A stretch of DNA of 59,103 nucleotides, taken from an uncultured Pelagibacteraceae bacterium. Its GTDB lineage: Bacteria > Pseudomonadota > Alphaproteobacteria > Pelagibacterales > Pelagibacteraceae. The number at the start of each line of letters is the position of its first letter. Position 1 is the first letter of the stretch. Below, piece by piece: positions 15,387-39,439 of the stretch. The stretch spans positions 1-59,103 of the forward strand of contig CACLST010000004.1 of assembly GCA_902609675.1 (NCBI GenBank), in the 5' to 3' direction. The notes beneath the pieces are model-generated. The model was not told where the DNA came from. It searched no databases and saw only the letters and a list, made by a program, of their open reading frames with translations. The position numbers were made by a program, and so were the translations under genes.

Positions 15387-17483
15387 TTATTTTTTTTTTA
15401 CCCAAAACTGATACATTGAAATAAACATATCAGGATTTTCACTTTCTAATGTATTCCAATTTTCAATATTTGTTTTATTAGTATCCTCCGGATAGTAGTT
15501 TGAATATTTTTTTTTAACTTCATCATCTGTAAAACCTAAAAACTCTAAATTAAGACTATTCAATAACTTTGAAATCTTATCTAGGGTAAATCTTTTCTCT
15601 TGGACATGAAAAATTAGATCCCTAATACTTGATGTAGAGTAAAAATCATAATTGTAGATTATTTTTTGAAACGATTTATTGTCTTTATTATTTTTAATAA
15701 ATTCTCTTGAATTTCTTATATCTTTAATATCAGTAGAAAAATTTTTTTTTTTTATAATATCTCTTATTTCAATAATATGTTTTCTTGAAATTTCACTATA
15801 TAAACCAAGTTTCAAAAAGCCATGAGGTTCTAAAATTTTTAATAATACTTTTAATCCATCCTCAGGATTTTCCATATGGTGAAGAACTCCTACACACTCA
15901 ATAACATCAAATTTTTTATTTATATTTTCTAAATTTAGAATATCACCATGCATAAATTCTATTTTATTAAAATTTATTTCTTCCATTTTTCTCTTAGCAT
16001 AAGCTAGACTAGAACGACTTAAATCTACAGCTAAGATATTTGCATTTTCATAAGTAATTGCATTTTCAAGTTGTTGACCTGTACCACAACCAGCTATTAA
16101 TACATTTGGATTAAAAAAAAATTTATTTGAGGTAATCTTATTCGGTTTTATATTGCTATTTAAGATATTGATAAAATTTGATTTTACACCTTCTGAAATA
16201 AATCTCCATCTTGGATAAGGATTAAATTCATATTGGTTTTTAACTTTTTTTGAAACTGTATTTGATATATCACCCATTGAGTCTATTTTATGACTTAATT
16301 CCTTCTCTTTATTTGGTTCTCTAATTTGCATATCAATTAGGTCATTGAACAACACATTTTTGGACTGATAATAAATTAGTTTTTCTGAAATGATTTTGGA
16401 ATTAGATAATGGTTTAAAACAAGCTAAAATGGCGACTTTTAACTCATTCACATTTTTATCTTTTTCAATTTCATTTAATAAAGAATTAGCTACTTCAATT
16501 TCTAGATCGCTCTGGGAAAATATAAACTCATTGAGAAAACACTGTTCTGCTAAGGAAATAATAAAATTTAAAAACTCTAATGAATTATCTACTAAATTAT
16601 CCAGAGATAAAATTATTTCTTTTCTAATTTTATTACAAAATTCTTCTAAAAATTTATCTCTTAATAATGATTTTTGCAGTATCAAATGAAAAAATTCATT
16701 TTTTAAAATTTGTTTTACATTTTGGTTTTCAATTAGATTACATTTTTGCTCAATTAGTTTCTTAATTTCTTGATATTCTTTGTCATCTAAAATGTATAAC
16801 TTTGCGTTATTGAAAAGTTGATTATGATTTATTAAATTTTTTTTATATAAAAAAATAAAAAGATCCTTAATCTCTTGTTTACTTCCTTTATCCGGATTAA
16901 GAATTTTTAACGAACTAAGTAAATCTGTAAGAATTTTAATTGATACTTTATTATTAAAATCAATTTTTAAGGCTTTTTTTAAGTGTAGTATTGCTCTATT
17001 TTTTTGATTTAATTCAATAAAATTGAGTGCAATGATGTTATGAGATGTCAAATTTTTAGGTTCAATTTCAATAACTTTCATAAAACATTCATTGGCATTT
17101 TGGTATTTTTTTAATTTGTTTAGTACAATCCCTTTATTAAAATATGCTAAAGTAAAATCTTGTTTAATATTAATTAGGTTTTCGAAATATTTAAGAGCAT
17201 TATCAAAATCCCCAGTTTCATGAAAAACATTTCCGAGATTTAAATTTATATTTAGGTCTTTAGGTTTTAAACTGTCAGCTCTCATAAGAAATTCTTTAGC
17301 CAAACTAAATTTTTTTGATTGTGCATACAACGTGCCTAGATAAAATATCGCTCCTAAATGATTAGGAAAAATATCCAATATATCTTTATATAATTTTTCA
17401 GCTAATATAAAATTATTTTCTTTATGGTGTTTAACGGCCGTATCTAATTTAAACTTTATATTATTGTTATCCTCAAGTTTCAC
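15387..17483 (-). CDS. TPR-repeat protein with C-terminal class I SAM-dependent methyltransferase
   Basis: N-terminal TPRs (AIFYLGTLYAQSKKFSLAKEFLMRADSLKP...), NPYPRWRF motif, SAM motif VLIAGCGTGQQLENA, post-motif VGVLHHMENP. Confidence 0.85.
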   Translation of the reverse strand: MKLEDNNNIKFKLDTAVKHHKENNFILAEKLYKDILDIFPNHLGAIFYLGTLYAQSKKFSLAKEFLMRADSLKPKDLNINLNLGNVFHETGDFDNALKYFENLINIKQDFTLAYFNKGIVLNKLKKYQNANECFMKVIEIEPKNLTSHNIIALNFIELNQKNRAILHLKKALKIDFNNKVSIKILTDLLSSLKILNPDKGSKQEIKDLFIFLYKKNLINHNQLFNNAKLYILDDKEYQEIKKLIEQKCNLIENQNVKQILKNEFFHLILQKSLLRDKFLEEFCNKIRKEIILSLDNLVDNSLEFLNFIISLAEQCFLNEFIFSQSDLEIEVANSLLNEIEKDKNVNELKVAILACFKPLSNSKIISEKLIYYQSKNVLFNDLIDMQIREPNKEKELSHKIDSMGDISNTVSKKVKNQYEFNPYPRWRFISEGVKSNFINILNSNIKPNKITSNKFFFNPNVLIAGCGTGQQLENAITYENANILAVDLSRSSLAYAKRKMEEINFNKIEFMHGDILNLENINKKFDVIECVGVLHHMENPEDGLKVLLKILEPHGFLKLGLYSEISRKHIIEIRDIIKKKNFSTDIKDIRNSREFIKNNKDNKSFQKIIYNYDFYSTSSIRDLIFHVQEKRFTLDKISKLLNSLNLEFLGFTDDEVKKKYSNYYPEDTNKTNIENWNTLESENPDMFISMYQFWVKKK

Positions 17484-18043
17484 TAAATTGAATAACCTAA
17501 TTTTGAACTTTTTATAAAATTTTCATCATCAAAAGTATCTTTGATCTTTTTTCTTAATCTATATATGTGTGTTTCTACAGTATGGGTTTCAAGTTTAAAA
17601 TTATGCCCCCATACCTCTGTTTGCATTTTAGATATTTTTACAGGTTTAGCTGCTTTGTTTAGAAATATTAAAATATTTGCTTCACGCTCTGTTAAATTTA
17701 AATGTTTAGATTTACAACTTATTTTCCTGGAATTTAAATTGAGCTTATAATTAGAAATGATTATATCTGCTTGCTGAACATATCTATTCTTTAAAAATCT
17801 TATATTTATATTTTCAATTAATTTAATTATTTCAATTGGAAAATTAATAATCTCAAGTTGGTTAATAACATTTTTTATTTTTTTATCTGAAATAAGTAAG
17901 AATTTACTGCTTTCTTTTTTATAAATTTCTAAGTTATTTGTTTTTTCAATATTTATAACATTAAAATTGAAAAAATTTTTTAGCTCACTGAGAATTTCAT
18001 ATAAAACTTTAAAATCATAAATTACTAAAGTTTGATTATTCAT
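17483..18043 (-). CDS. Winged-helix (OmpR/PhoB-type) DNA-binding protein with degenerate receiver-like N-terminus
   Basis: C-terminus LTEREANILIFLNKAAKPVKISKMQTEVWGHNFKLETHTVETHIYRLRKKI; start set at internal Met MNNQTLVIYDF since the ORF extension to 18145 overlaps the divergent gene. Confidence 0.82.
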   Translation of the reverse strand: MNNQTLVIYDFKVLYEILSELKNFFNFNVINIEKTNNLEIYKKESSKFLLISDKKIKNVINQLEIINFPIEIIKLIENINIRFLKNRYVQQADIIISNYKLNLNSRKISCKSKHLNLTEREANILIFLNKAAKPVKISKMQTEVWGHNFKLETHTVETHIYRLRKKIKDTFDDENFIKSSKLGYSI

Positions 18044-18056
18044 ATATAAACAAGAT

Positions 18057-18551
18057 ATGACAATTATTTTGAAAAATAAAGTATCACTTATCTTTGATGA
18101 TTTTTGTTTTAAATGCTGTATTGGCAAAAATGGATTGTGTAACAAAAAAATTGAAGGAGATAAAAAAACTCCTACAGGCCAATTTTCTCTTGGAAACCTT
18201 TATTATAGACAAGATAGATTAGAAAAGCCTATTACTAGATTAAAATCTATACCAATAAATAAAAAAATGGGTTGGTGTGATGATAAAAGAGATGACAAAA
18301 ATTACAATAAATTAATAAAAATTAAAAAAAAAATTAAGCACGAAAAACTTTTTAGAAAAGATTATAAGTACGATTTAATGATCCCAATAAATTATAATAC
18401 AAAAAAAATAAAGTTAGGTAAAGGGAGTGCAATATTTCTTCACTTAACAAAAAAATATAAACCTACAAATGGATGTGTGGCTCTTAATAAAAAGGATTTT
18501 ATGATATTGTTAAAATTAATTAACAAAAAAACTCAAATTAAATTAGCCTAA
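18057..18551 (+). CDS. L,D-transpeptidase (YkuD family)
   Basis: KTPTGQFSLG and catalytic-type GSAIFLHLTKKYKPTNGCVALNKKDF. Confidence 0.85.
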   Translation: MTIILKNKVSLIFDDFCFKCCIGKNGLCNKKIEGDKKTPTGQFSLGNLYYRQDRLEKPITRLKSIPINKKMGWCDDKRDDKNYNKLIKIKKKIKHEKLFRKDYKYDLMIPINYNTKKIKLGKGSAIFLHLTKKYKPTNGCVALNKKDFMILLKLINKKTQIKLA

Positions 18552-24533: not shown

Positions 24534-25500
24534 AAGTTTCGAATTAGAAAAATTAAAGTCCAATAAATCTAATTTACATTTAATTTATGGAAATAATGAA
24601 GGTATTAAAGAAGATATAATTAATAATATTTATTTAAAAGATTTTAATGGTGAAATACTTAAATATGATGAACAAGAAATCATAAATAATAAAGATAATT
24701 TTTTCTCTAACATATTTACTAATTCTCTTTTTGAGATAAATAAATTGATTATTATTTCAAGAGGATCAGATAAGTTAACTAGTTTTTTAATTGAAATTTT
24801 AGAAAAAGAGATAGCTGATGTTAAAATTATAATTAAATGTTCAAATCTCGAAAAGAAATCAAAATTAAGAAGCTTATTTGAGAAAGAAAAAACAGTTATT
24901 TGTACACCTGTTTATGAAGATGATATTCGATCTTTAAATTCTGTTATTCAAAACTTTTTGAGAGAGGGCAAATTTAACTTATCACAAGAAATAAAAAATA
25001 TACTTATAGAAAGATCAAAAGGAGATAGAATAAATTTAAAGAACGAACTATCAAAGTTGAAAAATCTTGCAGTTAGCAGGAAAACGCTGAGCACAGAGGA
25101 TGTTCTTAAACTTTCAAATCTTGCAGAAAATTATAGCGTATTTGAGTTATCAGATAATTATCTAGCTAAAAATTCAAAGAAAGTTTCTAATATTCTAAAT
25201 GAAAATAACTATTCATCAGAAGACTGCATTTTAATTATAAGAACAATACTTAATAAATCTAAAAGACTTTTAAAAATTAGAAATGAAGTCGATAATAATA
25301 TAAATATTGATCAAGTGATATCTAACTTTAAACCTCCTATATTTTGGAAAGAAAAAGATATATTGAAAAAACAAGCTCAATCATGGTCAACTGATGAGGT
25401 AAAAGAAATGATTTACAAAGTTAATGATTTAGAGGCATCAGTAAAGAAAAATTCAGCAAATTCAATGCTTTTTGTGTCAAATTTTGTAAGTAATTACTAG
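24523..25500 (+). CDS. holA: DNA polymerase III subunit delta
   Basis: HLIYGNNEGIKEDII; size and leuS-lptE-holA order. Confidence 0.85.
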   Translation: MIIKSFELEKLKSNKSNLHLIYGNNEGIKEDIINNIYLKDFNGEILKYDEQEIINNKDNFFSNIFTNSLFEINKLIIISRGSDKLTSFLIEILEKEIADVKIIIKCSNLEKKSKLRSLFEKEKTVICTPVYEDDIRSLNSVIQNFLREGKFNLSQEIKNILIERSKGDRINLKNELSKLKNLAVSRKTLSTEDVLKLSNLAENYSVFELSDNYLAKNSKKVSNILNENNYSSEDCILIIRTILNKSKRLLKIRNEVDNNINIDQVISNFKPPIFWKEKDILKKQAQSWSTDEVKEMIYKVNDLEASVKKNSANSMLFVSNFVSNY

Positions 25501-26348
25501 TAATTTGCTTTAATAATCTCTACAAGCCTATCTAATTGGTCGGTACCCTTGTACTCTAGGATAATAGTACCGGAGTTATTTCTTTTATTTTTAACAAAAA
25601 CTCTCATTCCAATTTTATCTGTTAACTCCTCTTCAAGACTTACAATATTTGGATCTTTTTTCTTTAAGGAACTACTTGAATTAGATTTCAACATACGTAC
25701 TAAACTTTCAGCTTGTCTTACTGATAATTTTTTCGAGATTATTTTCTTAGCTAAAAGAATTGCATTTTCTAATCCAACTAGAATTTTTGCATGACCTTGT
25801 GATAATTTTTCTTCGATTATTAAATCTATTATTTCTTTTGGCAAAGATAAAAGCCTTAAACAATTTGATATATGAGCTCTACTTTTACCAATAAATTTAG
25901 ATACTTTATCTTGATCATAACCAAACTCATCGATTAATCTTTTATAACCCTCTGCCTCCTCTATTGGATTTAAGTCCTTTCTTTGTACATTTTCTACAAT
26001 AGCGAATTCTAGAGATTTAAGATTATCTACATTTATAACAACTACTGGTACTTCATGAAGACCTGCGTATTGTGCTGCTTGCCATCTTCTTTCTCCAGCT
26101 ATTATTTCAAATTTATCTTCTTCCTCAGAAAATGGTCTTACAATGATAGGTTGGATAATGCCTCGCTCTCTTATAGAGTTTGTTAATTCCTCTAGACTAA
26201 TCTCATCAAATTTTTTTCTAGGCTGATACTTATTTCTAACTAGTGAACTTATTGAGATATTTTTTTTGTCATCAATTTTTTCACTATCACCTATTAAGGA
26301 AGATAATCCTCTTCCAAGTCCTTTTTTTGATTTAAACGGATTAATCAT
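25497..26348 (-). CDS. parB: Chromosome partitioning protein ParB
   Basis: KKGLGRGLSSLIGD, NKYQPRKKFDE, IAGERRWQAAQYAGLHEVPVVV motifs. Confidence 0.97.
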   Translation of the reverse strand: MINPFKSKKGLGRGLSSLIGDSEKIDDKKNISISSLVRNKYQPRKKFDEISLEELTNSIRERGIIQPIIVRPFSEEEDKFEIIAGERRWQAAQYAGLHEVPVVVINVDNLKSLEFAIVENVQRKDLNPIEEAEGYKRLIDEFGYDQDKVSKFIGKSRAHISNCLRLLSLPKEIIDLIIEEKLSQGHAKILVGLENAILLAKKIISKKLSVRQAESLVRMLKSNSSSSLKKKDPNIVSLEEELTDKIGMRVFVKNKRNNSGTIILEYKGTDQLDRLVEIIKANY

Positions 26349-27145
26349 GCTGCACTCTCCACTGGTTTATCTTGGTTTAAAAATTCTTCTGTAAAACTGA
26401 AATATGCTCTACTTCCTGGACAAGTCTTGTCGTATATAAGAACAGGAACACCGTGTGAGGGTGCCTCTGATAGTCTGACATTTCTTGGTACAGCTGTGGT
26501 ATAAACTTTATCCTTAAAATAGTTCCTTGCCTCTGTTTCTACCTCACCTGATAATTTATTTCTCTTGTCATACATTGTTAGAAGTATTCCTCTTATATCT
26601 AAATTTGGATTTAGGTTGGACTTTATTCTTTCAATTGTTTTCATAAGCTGTGTGAGTCCTTCCAGAGCAAAGAATTCTGTCTGAAGAGGTACGACAAGAG
26701 CATCAGAAGCTACCAAGGCCATGATTGTTAGGAGGCTTAAGGATGGTGGACAGTCAATTATGATATAGTCATAAGATGGCTCAGAATTGTTTAAAATAAG
26801 GGTTAATTCATCTTTCAATTTAAAGGCTCTCCGGCTGTCTCCGGCTGTCTCCACTTCTAGCCCCGACAAATCAACATTTGATGATATTAAATCTAAATTT
26901 TCAAAGCTTGTAGGCTGGATTACTTCAGAAATTTTTTTATTTCCATTTAATACATTGTAAATTGTTTGATCAGAACTTGTTGCGTTAGATAATCCAAGTC
27001 CCGTTGTAGCATTACCTTGTGGATCAAGATCAATTACAAGAATTTTTTTTCCTTTCATGGTTAGACCAGCCGCAAGATTGATGACGGTTGTGGTCTTTCC
27101 TACTCCACCTTTTTGATTTATGACTGAAATAATTTTTTTATTCAT
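26345..27145 (-). CDS. parA: Chromosome partitioning ATPase ParA
   Basis: VINQKGGVGKTTTVINLA, LVIDLDPQGNATTGLG. Confidence 0.97.
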   Translation of the reverse strand: MNKKIISVINQKGGVGKTTTVINLAAGLTMKGKKILVIDLDPQGNATTGLGLSNATSSDQTIYNVLNGNKKISEVIQPTSFENLDLISSNVDLSGLEVETAGDSRRAFKLKDELTLILNNSEPSYDYIIIDCPPSLSLLTIMALVASDALVVPLQTEFFALEGLTQLMKTIERIKSNLNPNLDIRGILLTMYDKRNKLSGEVETEARNYFKDKVYTTAVPRNVRLSEAPSHGVPVLIYDKTCPGSRAYFSFTEEFLNQDKPVESAA

Positions 27146-27782
27146 ATTTTTTTTCTAAATTAGAAATTTTTACTACTGATGACTCATCACTTGTAAGACT
27201 TTTCATTTCCTCTATATCAAATTTCCATTTTGTAGAGACTTCTTTTAAAATTTTTTTTCCACTCTTTCCTAAATACATGACTATGTATTTAAAATTTTTA
27301 AAATTTTTTGTTGCTATATCAAAAATCACAGGTAAAGGTTTGAATGCTCTACAAATTATTACATCTGTAACTAAATTTTTCTCTTCAAATATATTTTTTT
27401 GGTAAACTTTTGCTTCCAATTTAAACTTTTCTACCATCTCCTTTAAAAAATTGCTCTTATGATGGCTCTTCTCATAAAAAATTAGCTTAAAACCTTGCTT
27501 TTTAGATTTCATCAAAATACCCAAAACTATACTAGGAAGCCCTGCACCTGAGCCGAGATCAGTACATACCTTGATGTCGTTTTTATCAATAAATTCAATG
27601 GTTTGAGCACTATCATAAATATGCCTTGTATTTATTGAATTTTCTGTATTTGAACTTATCAAATTTATTTTCTTGTTTGTTCTCAATATTGACTGAGAAT
27701 ATTCTCCTAACTCCTTAAGTGTTTCACGTGAAACATTTGGGATATAAATTTTATTAGTTTTTATTATTTTCGAATCAATCAA
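27138..27782 (-). CDS. rsmG: 16S rRNA (guanine(527)-N(7))-methyltransferase
   Basis: [26 protein letters not shown]-terminus; between parA and mnmG. Confidence 0.93.
27720..27735. promoter_or_regulatory. parS centromere site (perfect TGTTTCACGTGAAACA)
   Basis: Exact 16-bp palindrome in the 5' coding region of rsmG, encoding NVSRET. Confidence 0.95.
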
Positions 27783-33709: not shown

Positions 33710-34702
33710 TTATAAATTCTTTGAAATTAGATGTTTGAATAAAGAAATATGATCTTCATTATCATTTAAGCAAGGTATCATTTCAAAGTTTTCACCACCT
33801 GATTTGATAAAACTTTCTTTCCCTTGGATAGATATTTCTTCTAAAGTCTCAACACAATCAGATGAAAAACCAGGACATATAACTAAAATATTTTTTTTTC
33901 CCTCTTTGGGCAAAGCTTCAAAAGTTTTGTCTGTATAAGGTTGCAGCCATTCTTGAGGACCAAATCTTGATTGAAATGTTGTCATAATTTTAATATCTGA
34001 ATATTTTTCAGAAATTAGCCTAGTAGTTTTATGGCAATAGCAATGATAAGGGTCCCCCTTGTCAAAATATTTTTTTGGTATTCCATGATATGAAGCTACT
34101 ATTAAGTCTGGTTTCCAATTAATTTCGTTAATTTTTTTTACAATACTATTTTTAATAGCGTCTATATAAAGAGGTTCAGACTCATAATGAGGAACTATTT
34201 TTAAATTCGGTTGCCATCTCATTTTCATAAGGGTTCTATATACCTCGTCACATACAGTTGCAGTTGTTGCAGCAGCATATTGAGGATAAAGAGGTAGTAT
34301 TATTAAATTCTCACAACCTTTTTCGTGAAGTTGGTTTATTTTACTTTTAATGCTTGGATTGCCATACCTCATAGCAAAATCAACAATCAACTTTTCATTC
34401 CCGATTTTCTCGGATAATTTTTTAGCTTGGCTTTCTGTAAAAAACCTTAGTGGCGACATGTTCTTTTCTTTCATCCATATTTCTTTGTAGGCTTTAGCAG
34501 TTTTTGATGGCCTGAAAGTAAGTATAAATAAGTTAAGAATTACTTGCCAAATAAAAGGGTTTACTTCGATAACTCTTCTATCTGATAAAAATTCCTTTAA
34601 ATATCTCCTTATATCCAGCCAACTAGTAGAGTCGGGTGTACCAAGATTTATAATTAAAATCCCTGTTTTACCATAATTAACTTTAGGATGGTCTGGTGTC
34701 AT
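33710..34702 (-). CDS. hemH: Ferrochelatase
   Basis: ILIINLGTPDSTSWLDIRRYLKEFLSDRRVIE, ASYHGIPKKYFDKGDPYHCYC. Confidence 0.97.
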   Translation of the reverse strand: MTPDHPKVNYGKTGILIINLGTPDSTSWLDIRRYLKEFLSDRRVIEVNPFIWQVILNLFILTFRPSKTAKAYKEIWMKEKNMSPLRFFTESQAKKLSEKIGNEKLIVDFAMRYGNPSIKSKINQLHEKGCENLIILPLYPQYAAATTATVCDEVYRTLMKMRWQPNLKIVPHYESEPLYIDAIKNSIVKKINEINWKPDLIVASYHGIPKKYFDKGDPYHCYCHKTTRLISEKYSDIKIMTTFQSRFGPQEWLQPYTDKTFEALPKEGKKNILVICPGFSSDCVETLEEISIQGKESFIKSGGENFEMIPCLNDNEDHISLFKHLISKNL

Positions 34703-35700
34703 TTAAAGTTTCTTACTATTTTTATCAAGTCTTCAACCATTTCAATTTTAGTTTCTGGTAAAATTCCATGTCCTAAATTAAATATATATGGATGATCCTT
34801 AAAAATATGAAGATATTTTTCCACTTCTTTTTTAAGAATTCCTTTATCAGTCAATAATATTTTAGGGTCAAGCCCCCCTTGGACAGGAATTTTTATTTCT
34901 TTCACTATTTTTTCTGGATCAACATCATAGTCTATGTTTATTGCATCTGGTTTAACTATTTCACAGAAATTTTTGTAGTCTTTAATACCTCTTGGAAAAC
35001 AAATTACAGGCACACCTAATTGTTTGACATATTCTACAATATTTAATGTTGGAATATAAATGTATTCAGGAATTTTATCATTTAGTAATCCTGCCCAACT
35101 ATCAAAAATTTGAATTACTTTAGCCCCGGCTTCAACCTGATTTTTTATATGAACTTTTAAGAATTTTTCAATAATTCCTAATAGTCTGTTAATTAGAAAT
35201 TCATCTTTAAAGAATTCATCTGTTAGACCTTTTTTTGGTGATGATCTGTTAATCATGTAAACAAGAATAGTCCATGGAGCTCCAACAAAACCTATCATGT
35301 CTTTATTATCCATTAAAGGATTCTCGGAAGTTTTGGATATTGCTTTGTAAACTTTATAAACTTTTTCTGTAAAATTAATCTCATCAACATTTTTAAAATT
35401 ATCTAATTCTATTTCTCCAAGCTTTGGTCCAAAATTTTTTTCAAATTCTACCTTTTGACCAAGACCATACGGTAACATTAAAATGTCGGAAAATATTACT
35501 GCACCATCAAACCCAAATCTCTTTATAGGCTGAAGGGTTATTTCAGATGCCAAATCGCTGTTTAAACAAAGTTTTATAAAATCTGTATTTTTTTTTCTTA
35601 TTTCTCGAAATTCAGGCAAATACCTTCCTGCTTGTCTCATTAACCATATAGGATTAGTTTTAGTGTCTTTATTTTTTATACAGTTAGTTAAGGGACTCAT
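34699..35700 (-). CDS. hemE: Uroporphyrinogen decarboxylase
   Basis: PIWLMRQAGRYLPEFREIR, VIQIFDSWAG, NLGHGILPET. Confidence 0.98.
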   Translation of the reverse strand: MSPLTNCIKNKDTKTNPIWLMRQAGRYLPEFREIRKKNTDFIKLCLNSDLASEITLQPIKRFGFDGAVIFSDILMLPYGLGQKVEFEKNFGPKLGEIELDNFKNVDEINFTEKVYKVYKAISKTSENPLMDNKDMIGFVGAPWTILVYMINRSSPKKGLTDEFFKDEFLINRLLGIIEKFLKVHIKNQVEAGAKVIQIFDSWAGLLNDKIPEYIYIPTLNIVEYVKQLGVPVICFPRGIKDYKNFCEIVKPDAINIDYDVDPEKIVKEIKIPVQGGLDPKILLTDKGILKKEVEKYLHIFKDHPYIFNLGHGILPETKIEMVEDLIKIVRNFK

Positions 35701-35983
35701 ATAAATAGATATATATTATTTACTTTATTAGTATTATGTATTGTGAATAACGTAAATTAGTCAATTATCACACTTTGTTAACTCTTTATTAATAATTTAG
35801 ATCTCTATTTAGATCCATTTTATGAGGATTAATTAAGATTTCACATATTTTTTGTATATTATGTATAACTTTATTAACATTTATAATTTAGTTAATTTGA
35901 TGGAAAAAAAACTAACTATTAATATTCAGAGGGGTAAATCTGAATTTTTCTTATTTTACTTATAGATTATAAACTCTTTATAC
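35701..35983. other. Candidate chromosomal replication origin (oriC)
   Basis: 283-bp AT-rich non-coding gap at a divergent strand switch between hemE and ppsR; TGTGAATAA (revcomp TTATTCACA, DnaA box TTATNCACA) at 35742..35750; TTAA-N7-TTAA at 35778..35792; repeated TTTAGATC; parABS within 10 kb; hemE-adjacent origin known in Caulobacter. Confidence 0.7.
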
Positions 35984-36811
35984 ATGAAAAATTTATATCA
36001 AATATACTTAATATCAGACTCTACTGGCGAAACACTTGATAGAATTTTTTTAGCTTTAAAAGCACAATTTCCTAATTTCGAATACGAGACAAATCATTTC
36101 TCCTTTACTCGTACTGAAAGTCAAACACTTGCTATACTAAAACAGGCAAAAAAAGATAAAAATTCTATTATTTTATATACTATTGTTAATAGTAAATTGG
36201 CAAAATATCTTACAGAAAAATCCTATGAAAGAAATATACCTTGTTTTGGAGTTCTTGGAGACTTGATTTTAAATTTTTCAAAGGTCTTAAATCAGAAAGC
36301 TTCTCATCAACCAAGTGGACAGCATATTTTAAATGAAGAATACTATGATAGAATTGAAGCTATTCAATTTACGATGAACCATGATGATGGTAATCAAACT
36401 GATGATATAGAGAAATCAGATATTATTTTATTAGGTGTAAGCAGAACCAGTAAAACACCAACTTCCATTTATTTAGCTAATAGAGGGTTCAAAACTTCAA
36501 ATATTCCACTAGTAAATAAAAATTCTATACCATCTAAAGTTACCGAAAAAAATTTTAGACCATGCGTTGTTGGTTTAGTTACAGAAGCAGAAAGATTATA
36601 TGATTTAAGAAAAAATAGATTGAATTCATTGAAAGAAGATCAAAATAGTGAATATGTAAATATTGATAAGATTAAAGATGAACTAAATAGTGCTAGAAAA
36701 TTATTTAAGGAGAATAATTGGCCAACGATAGATGTAACAAGAAAATCTGTTGAGGAAACAGCAGCGTCAGTAATAAAAATTTTTGAGATAAAGAACAAAA
36801 AAAATGCTTAA
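35984..36811 (+). CDS. Kinase/pyrophosphorylase (PPDK/PEPS regulatory protein, DUF299 family)
   Basis: YLISDSTGETLDRI, LLGVSRTSKTPTSIYLANRGFKTSNIPLV. Confidence 0.95.
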   Translation: MKNLYQIYLISDSTGETLDRIFLALKAQFPNFEYETNHFSFTRTESQTLAILKQAKKDKNSIILYTIVNSKLAKYLTEKSYERNIPCFGVLGDLILNFSKVLNQKASHQPSGQHILNEEYYDRIEAIQFTMNHDDGNQTDDIEKSDIILLGVSRTSKTPTSIYLANRGFKTSNIPLVNKNSIPSKVTEKNFRPCVVGLVTEAERLYDLRKNRLNSLKEDQNSEYVNIDKIKDELNSARKLFKENNWPTIDVTRKSVEETAASVIKIFEIKNKKNA

Positions 36812-37388
36812 TATTATATTGGCATCAAAAAGCAAGATCAGAAAAGAAATACTGAATAATCACAATGTCCTTTGTGATGTTGAAGTATCAAATGTAGATG
36901 AAGAACCAATCAAAGAGAGTTTGATAAGAGAAGGAGCCACTCCAGAAATAATATCCAAAAACCTTGCTGAATTAAAAGCAAATAAAGTAAGTCAAAAAAA
37001 GAACAACACCCTTGTTTTAGGTGCAGATAGTGTAATAGACCTATCGGGTGAGTTAATATCAAAACCTGAAAGCAGGGATGAGGCACTTAAAATTTTAAAA
37101 AAACTAAATGGAAAAAAACACTCTTTAATTAGTTCAGTCTGTATATCTAAAAATGGGTCAATGATTTGGAATTACACAGATAAAGCATATTTGACAATGA
37201 AAAATTTTTCTGAAGATGAACTAATACTGTATCTTAGCAAAATTAGTGACGAAAAATTATATGCATATAATGTTTACCAAATCGAGGGAGAGGGAAGAAC
37301 TTTGTTTTCAAGTATTGAAGGAGATGAAGATACCATAATGGGACTACCTATTAAAAAAATTAAGGAATATTTAGAACTTCAAATATGA
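36804..37388 (+). CDS. Maf family nucleotide pyrophosphatase
   Basis: NIILASKSKIRKEIL, LGADSVIDLSGELISKP. Confidence 0.92.
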   Translation: MLNIILASKSKIRKEILNNHNVLCDVEVSNVDEEPIKESLIREGATPEIISKNLAELKANKVSQKKNNTLVLGADSVIDLSGELISKPESRDEALKILKKLNGKKHSLISSVCISKNGSMIWNYTDKAYLTMKNFSEDELILYLSKISDEKLYAYNVYQIEGEGRTLFSSIEGDEDTIMGLPIKKIKEYLELQI

Positions 37389-38179
37389 AAAAATTTTTAG
37401 TAATAGGGAATCCAATTGAACATTCTTTATCTCCAAAGTTACATAATTATTGGATAAAAAAAAATAATTTAGATGCAATTTATGGAAAACTGGAAGCCTA
37501 TGACAATGATTTGTCTGAACTATGCAAATCTATCAAAAAGGGAGATTTGGAGGGTTTAAATGTTACTGTCCCTTTTAAAAAATCTATAATACCTCACCTA
37601 GATATTTTAAGTAGTAATGCATTAAGAACACAATCAGTAAATACTGTCTCGTTAAGTAAAGGTAATTTAGTTGGAGACAATACTGATATTAATGGGTTTG
37701 AATTAAGTATTAGAAAATTGAATTATGATATTAGTGACAAGATAGTTCTGATATTAGGTGCTGGTGGAGTTGTGCCGTCAATAATTTTTTCATTGTTGAG
37801 GATGAAAGTATCAAAAATTTTTTTGAGTAATAGAACTAAAACAAAAGCTGAAAATTTAAAAAATTTATTCAATGAGATCAATGTTATGGATTGGGGCGAT
37901 TTACCAAATTTTGATATGATAATAAATGCCACTACTTTAGGTTTAAATAAAGTAGATAAATTTGGCATAGACTTTTCTCAGGCTGGTCAAAATAAGCTCT
38001 TTTATGATGTTATATATGCACCATTTCAAACAGAGTTTTCAGAGGCAGGAAATGCGCAGGGTAATTCAATTGAAAATGGTTTAAATATGTTTTTATTTCA
38101 GGGTCAACAAGCTTTTAATATTTGGCATAATGTTGAACCAGAGATTAACAAAGAATTAATTGAATTTCTAAAAAACTGA
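37385..38179 (+). CDS. aroE: Shikimate dehydrogenase
   Basis: VIGNPIEHSLSPKLHNYWI, GLNVTVPFKKSI, VLILGAGGVVPSII. Confidence 0.95.
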   Translation: MKKFLVIGNPIEHSLSPKLHNYWIKKNNLDAIYGKLEAYDNDLSELCKSIKKGDLEGLNVTVPFKKSIIPHLDILSSNALRTQSVNTVSLSKGNLVGDNTDINGFELSIRKLNYDISDKIVLILGAGGVVPSIIFSLLRMKVSKIFLSNRTKTKAENLKNLFNEINVMDWGDLPNFDMIINATTLGLNKVDKFGIDFSQAGQNKLFYDVIYAPFQTEFSEAGNAQGNSIENGLNMFLFQGQQAFNIWHNVEPEINKELIEFLKN

Positions 38180-38202
38180 AACTATGAGACTTAAAAGCAA
38201 AC

Positions 38203-38796
38203 ATGATTAGAGTTGGAATAATTGGAGATATAGGATCAGGAAAATCTTTTATTTCTAAGCTCTTTGGATACCCAGTATTTAACGCAGATGATGAAGTAAA
38301 ATATATTTATAAAAAAAATAAAGAGTGTTTTAATAAATTAAAAAAAAAATTACCAAAATTTATAAAAACATTTCCTATCAAAAAAAAAGAGCTTATATCA
38401 GCAATTAACTCAAATAAGAAAAATCTTAAAGTTATATCTTCTATTGTTCACCCATTGGTAAGAAAAAATATGAAAAAATTTATAATAAATAATAAGAAGA
38501 GTGAAATGATTATTTTTGATATCCCTTTATTAATAGAAAACAAACTCAATAAAAAAAAAGATATAATTATTTTCGTTAAATCAAAAAAATCTAAAGTCTT
38601 AAACAGATTAAAAAAGAGGCCTAACTTTAATGAAAAATTGATAAAGAATCTAAAAGAAAATCAGGTTATCTTATCTAAAAAAGAAAAATTAGCTGATTAT
38701 ATCATTAGTAATAATTTTTCAGCGAATGTGATGAAAAAAAAAGTTAAACTAATTAAAAAAGAAATTTTAAATGAAAGAAATAGTTCTAGATACTGA
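38203..38796 (+). CDS. coaE: Dephospho-CoA kinase
   Basis: IRVGIIGDIGSGKSFISKLFGYPVFNADDEV. Confidence 0.93.
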   Translation: MIRVGIIGDIGSGKSFISKLFGYPVFNADDEVKYIYKKNKECFNKLKKKLPKFIKTFPIKKKELISAINSNKKNLKVISSIVHPLVRKNMKKFIINNKKSEMIIFDIPLLIENKLNKKKDIIIFVKSKKSKVLNRLKKRPNFNEKLIKNLKENQVILSKKEKLADYIISNNFSANVMKKKVKLIKKEILNERNSSRY

Positions 38797-39439
38797 AACA
38801 ACTGGTTTATCTGTTAGAGATGGCCATAGAATTGTAGAAATTGGCTGCATTGAACTTGATAATTTAGTACCAACAAAAAACATTTTTCATTGTTATTTGA
38901 GCCCAGACGGGAAGAAAGTAGATCAAAAAGCGTTCGAAACTCATGGATATTCTGACGAGTTTCTATCAACAAAACAAAAATTTTTTGAAGTTGCTGAAGA
39001 TTTTTTAGATTTTATTAAAGATAAAAAAATTATCATCCACAATGCAGAATTTGATATTGGTCATTTAAATAATGAATTAACTTTAATTGGAAAGCCGAAG
39101 ATAATTAATGCAAATATCATCGATACGCTAGAATTAGCACGAAATAAATTTCCAGGCTCGGGAATAAGTTTAGATGCATTATGTAAAAGGTTTAGAATTG
39201 ATAATTCTAGAAGAGAAAAACATACTGCTTTGATAGATTGTGAATTACTTGCTAGGGTATACATAAATTTAATAGATCAAAAAGAACCAAAATTAAATTT
39301 AGTTGAAAATAGTGAAGATAAAATCTCATTCTCCAATGAAACTTCAAGTTATTTTAAAAAAATTGTTACACCCACTGAGAATGAATTATTAGAGCATAGC
39401 AAATTTCTAGAAAAAAAATTAAAAAAAAACTTTTTCTAA
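38771..39439 (+). CDS. dnaQ: DNA polymerase III subunit epsilon
   Basis: MKEIVLDTETTGLSVRDGHRIVEIGCIEL; exonuclease motifs. Confidence 0.96.
   Translation: MKEIVLDTETTGLSVRDGHRIVEIGCIELDNLVPTKNIFHCYLSPDGKKVDQKAFETHGYSDEFLSTKQKFFEVAEDFLDFIKDKKIIIHNAEFDIGHLNNELTLIGKPKIINANIIDTLELARNKFPGSGISLDALCKRFRIDNSRREKHTALIDCELLARVYINLIDQKEPKLNLVENSEDKISFSNETSSYFKKIVTPTENELLEHSKFLEKKLKKNFF

Follow-up and report, generated by a model that had tools for sequence, protein, structure and literature searches.

The spacer between hemE and the gene of a COG1806 protein is the position of the experimentally identified chromosomal origin of Caulobacter and of the predicted origins of Rickettsia (PMC1914354). The published order of elements in a bacterial origin is a DnaA box, a GC-rich segment of 4–5 bp, a DnaA-trio (3'-GAT-5'), and an AT-rich region (PMC8235120). 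The rule used in a search for such modules (BUS) asks for three or more 3'-NAN-5' trios no further than 16 bp from a DnaA box, and the spacing between the best box and the trios in that survey was most often 10–13 bp (PMC8287927).

The window analysed here, a stretch of 59,103 bp, comes from contig 4 of a Pelagibacteraceae (SAR11) genome of 986.8 kb (54 contigs, 71% complete), the closest named relatives of which are uncultured Pelagibacteraceae. SAR11 bacteria belong to the most abundant bacteria of the sea. A limited literature search found no description of the internal anatomy of a SAR11 origin; origin databases may list its position. A preliminary description of the window had proposed that the hemE/ppsR spacer at 35701–35983 is the replication origin.

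Results

The hemE/ppsR locus

The gene order at the locus, rho-hemJ-hemH-hemE / spacer / ppsR-maf-aroE-coaE-dnaQ-secB, is the known alphaproteobacterial oriC order. Leftward from the spacer, hemE (34699..35700, minus strand; PF01208, E = 2e-83), hemH, hemJ, and rho are followed by mnmE, mnmG, rsmG, parA, and parB. Rightward, ppsR, encoding a COG1806/DUF299 kinase-pyrophosphorylase (35984..36811, plus strand; PF03618, E = 3e-88), is followed by the maf-aroE-coaE-dnaQ cluster (36804..39439, plus strand; assigned with Pfam), secB, fxsA, timA, and hslU. As noted at the outset, parABS loci usually lie close to the origin; here parA and parB (25497–27145) and a perfect parS, TGTTTCACGTGAAACA, inside rsmG (27720..27735) all lie 8–10 kb from the spacer. 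Within mnmG, at about 28052, lies a near-perfect second copy of parS, ~8 kb away from the spacer. DnaA is encoded. Two OmpR-type winged-helix regulators were the only ones found in this 71%-complete genome (window 17483–18145 and L193), and L193 resembles ChvI as judged from its sequence.

The start codons of hemE (35700, minus strand) and ppsR (35984, plus strand) delimit a spacer of exactly 283 bp between divergent genes. As had been claimed, it is the longest intergenic gap of the window: in the gene set called here, the next longest are 208 and 200 bp and the median is 28 bp. The spacer was also described as very AT-rich. Its A+T content is indeed 81.6% versus 71.3% for the window, so that it is AT-richer than its surroundings, as a hemE-type oriC requires; however, this content alone is not a special mark, because about 3% of 283-bp windows equal or exceed it. 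Upstream of ppsR, at 35925–35955, the arms ATTCAGA...TCTGAAT form a short inverted repeat with a T-run behind it; it has no Rfam match, and the alignment does not show it conserved in the more distant relatives. A structured RNA in the spacer was rejected for lack of an Rfam match.

DnaA boxes and their conservation

The sequence TGTGAATAA at 35742–35750 is, as first reported, the reverse complement of the DnaA box TTATTCACA, which thus lies on the minus strand, and it is the sole exact match to TTATNCACA in the window. It should be noted that a single exact box in a single spacer is weak evidence when taken alone; the whole genome contains 42 exact TTATNCACA matches versus 45 for a reversed-pattern control.

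The spacer was compared across 108 loci of relatives, in which its length is 261–288 bp and mostly 281–286 bp. Despite this constant length, its interior is poorly conserved in the alignment. For the counting of boxes, the alignment was thinned to 31 lineages with a mutual identity below 80%, and the enrichment was measured against 100 shuffle sets. Exact TTATNCACA matches numbered 29 against 1.1 expected (about 26-fold; shuffle maximum 5), and matches with at most one mismatch numbered 133 against 25.3 expected (shuffle maximum 42). These matches cluster at fixed sites, namely 35742 (minus), 35967 (plus), 35786 (plus), 35871 (plus), and 35860 (minus). At the aligned site, the box of 35742..35750 was within one mismatch in 28 of the 31 lineages; it is conserved in relatives, in favour of the original proposal. 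In the complete same-genus relative G012 (1,343,202 bp), two exact TTATNCACA matches within 284 bp occur nowhere but in the homologous spacer.

Abutting the box, a conserved 9-mer, TAATTTACG (35751..35759, minus strand), has a G at 35752 and an ATTA at 35756–35759 that are invariant or nearly so; it is possibly a tandem low-affinity DnaA site. Three degenerate box-like sites with conserved columns follow on the plus strand at 35764, 35775, and 35786 (35764..35794), 11 bp apart. They are within one mismatch of TTATNCACA in 7, 7, and 17 of the 31 lineages, respectively, and we infer that they may be DnaA sites, bearing in mind that the first two match in only 7 lineages each. Two distal box-like sites at 35860 (minus) and 35871 (plus), within 35860..35879, are within one mismatch in 10/31 and 11/31 lineages. 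Near the right end, the plus-strand site TTATAAACT (35967..35975) has two mismatches in this genome and at most one in 22/31 lineages.

A putative unwinding module beside hemE

The left end of the spacer was analysed for the elements of a DNA unwinding module. An AT-rich unwinding element is predicted against the hemE start codon at 35700..35729, a stretch that shares the lowest duplex stability of any 30 bp in the window (−26.1 kcal/mol, nearest-neighbour sum). It is followed by a relaxed DnaA-trio, TAT TAG TAT TAT (3'-TAT TAT GAT TAT-5'), on the plus strand at 35726..35737, and by a 4-nt linker (35738..35741), the length of which is fixed in nearly all lineages while its sequence varies. The DUE-proximal DnaA box at 35742 comes next. 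With the third base left free, TAN is kept in 92% of the triplets across the 31 lineages, which ranks first among 269 start positions (mean 17%). A coding origin of the 3-bp period was rejected, as an in-frame TAA precedes the hemE start by ~15 nt.

Four trios at 4 bp from the box agree with the BUS search rule. This NAN rule is easily satisfied by chance in a single AT-rich sequence, and the weight lies in the conservation across lineages. The module fits the published unwinding order, but with a linker that is not GC-rich and with relaxed trios.

The spacer in a sister family without ppsR

A profile search found no ppsR in any of the 10 near-complete genomes (G061–G070) of a sister family, another family of the same order, that retains the neighbourhood of hemE and maf. 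In the five of its genomes that were examined, hemE faces maf across about 279–284 bp. These spacers open with a similar AT-rich stretch and a trio-like sequence, followed by a linker and box-like sites. The four-base linker ends in CC, strict TAGTAGTAGTAG trios (TAGTAGTAGTAGTTG) stand at the matching place in 2/5 genomes, and a box-like site occurs near the place of the 35967 site in 4/5.

These spacers bear on the best-surviving alternative, according to which the conserved elements are divergent hemE and ppsR promoters with their regulatory sites, and the origin lies elsewhere. Divergent genes do require promoters, and the 35967 site together with a TATAAA-like sequence is found immediately before ppsR. 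However, the sister family retains the spacer length, the trios, and the boxes without ppsR; that the spacer has outlived this neighbour speaks against a role confined to promoters. Moreover, promoters are not characterised by DnaA boxes or by TAN repeated with a 3-bp period. We consider this explanation highly improbable.

GC skew and the position of dnaA

As the genome of the window is fragmented, the cumulative GC skew was computed on G012. Its skew range exceeded that of all 5,000 bin shuffles. The detrended minimum falls within a flat trough of about 80 kb, at 31 kb to the left of the spacer, and the maximum lies 646 kb from the spacer, half the genome being 672 kb. Two partial relatives have their minimum 33–38 kb left of the spacer. 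When the gene-strand effect was subtracted, a weak third-position skew remained, with minima on the right at 11–46 kb, and a two-arc fit, at its best, lacked sharpness. The skew thus supports the neighbourhood only, no sharper than about 45 kb, and not an exact base: it turns within about 30–45 kb of the spacer in G012, and not in another part of the chromosome.

An origin beside dnaA, as in many bacteria, would also be near the skew trough, since only some 62 kb separate dnaA (1198375–1199790 in G012) from the spacer. The absence of a second exact-box pair within 284 bp anywhere in G012, the vicinity of dnaA included, makes this even less probable than the promoter explanation. Just as improbable is an origin about 30–45 kb off at the raw skew extreme, with the spacer merely nearby: the minimum does lie 31–38 kb left in three genomes, but the trough stays flat for about 80 kb, the minimum switches side once gene strand is removed, and no box cluster is found at the extreme.

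CtrA and IHF

According to a published report, Pelagibacter and Granulibacter lack ctrA (PMC2877005). In agreement with this, no CtrA ortholog was found in 12 near-complete relatives, the best match scoring 141.5 bits versus a curated cut-off of 350, which was passed by 1/14 control genomes. The spacer contains one TTAA-N7-TTAA, at 35778, which is better read as part of the box-like repeats; without an ortholog, CtrA gating was rejected, and a Caulobacter-like gating is unlikely. CtrA sites are frequent but not universal, and are not treated as defining for a hemE-type oriC, because this locus serves as an origin in species judged to have no CtrA. An IHF site finds no support: the spacer has no exact WATCAANNNNTTR, and the one-mismatch matches in the window are at chance level.

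Discussion

The initial proposal is supported by the locus, the box conservation, the anatomy of the module, the sister family lacking ppsR, and the skew neighbourhood. From these comparisons of sequences, we conclude that the spacer is very probably the chromosomal origin oriC of this Pelagibacteraceae bacterium, with a probability of roughly 94%. The points against this reading are the one exact box in its own spacer, the relaxed trio (one TAG, three TAT), the skew offset, and the lack of an IHF consensus and of CtrA.

The location, gene order, conservation, box enrichment, trio periodicity, and low duplex stability were computed here, and DnaA binding, the direction of the oligomer, opening, and helicase loading are proposed by analogy with other species. 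DnaA would bind the box at 35742–35750, aided by the weaker boxes further right, and its oligomer would extend leftwards onto the plus-strand triplets at 35726–35737, holding them single-stranded. Next to the hemE start codon, the AT-rich stretch would then open, the helicase would be loaded there, and bidirectional replication would start from this opened stretch.

Read-depth estimates of growth rate hinge on the true origin, and at least one such tool anchors the origin at dnaA (PMC7852909). Such dnaA-anchored tools would be slightly off in SAR11 (about 62 kb in G012). The two families also form a natural setting in which to compare strict with relaxed DnaA-trios, and the SAR11 locus offers an alphaproteobacterial origin without CtrA for comparison.

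It is well supported that the spacer is the SAR11 form of the already known alphaproteobacterial hemE-side oriC, the internal detail of which is partly new. At even odds, we suggest that the Pelagibacteraceae origin is a compact, CtrA-independent origin of fixed length (about 283 bp), whose trios are relaxed to TAN and whose degenerate DnaA boxes are phased and pinned at both ends, and that it represents a version, drifted towards AT, of the origin with strict TAG trios that some members of the sister family still keep.

The features common to this spacer, Caulobacter crescentus Cori, and the Rickettsia prowazekii origin are the hemE and COG1806 flanks, the AT-richness, and the DnaA boxes. The SAR11 spacer is shorter, 283 bp versus more than 400 bp for the published Caulobacter and Rickettsia origins (PMC1914354), and, unlike Cori, it holds one exact box in the case of this genome and has no IHF consensus site; with no CtrA ortholog found, it would have no CtrA gating. 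With the BUS of the Bacillus subtilis and Helicobacter pylori oriC it shares the order of box, short linker, trio, and AT-rich stretch. What sets the Pelagibacteraceae apart from those origins is a linker without GC-richness and a trio of the relaxed TAN form; the 4-bp linker is also shorter than the commonest 10–13 bp of the published survey (PMC8287927). The strict TAG trio, as in the BUS, is found in two of the five sister-family genomes examined.
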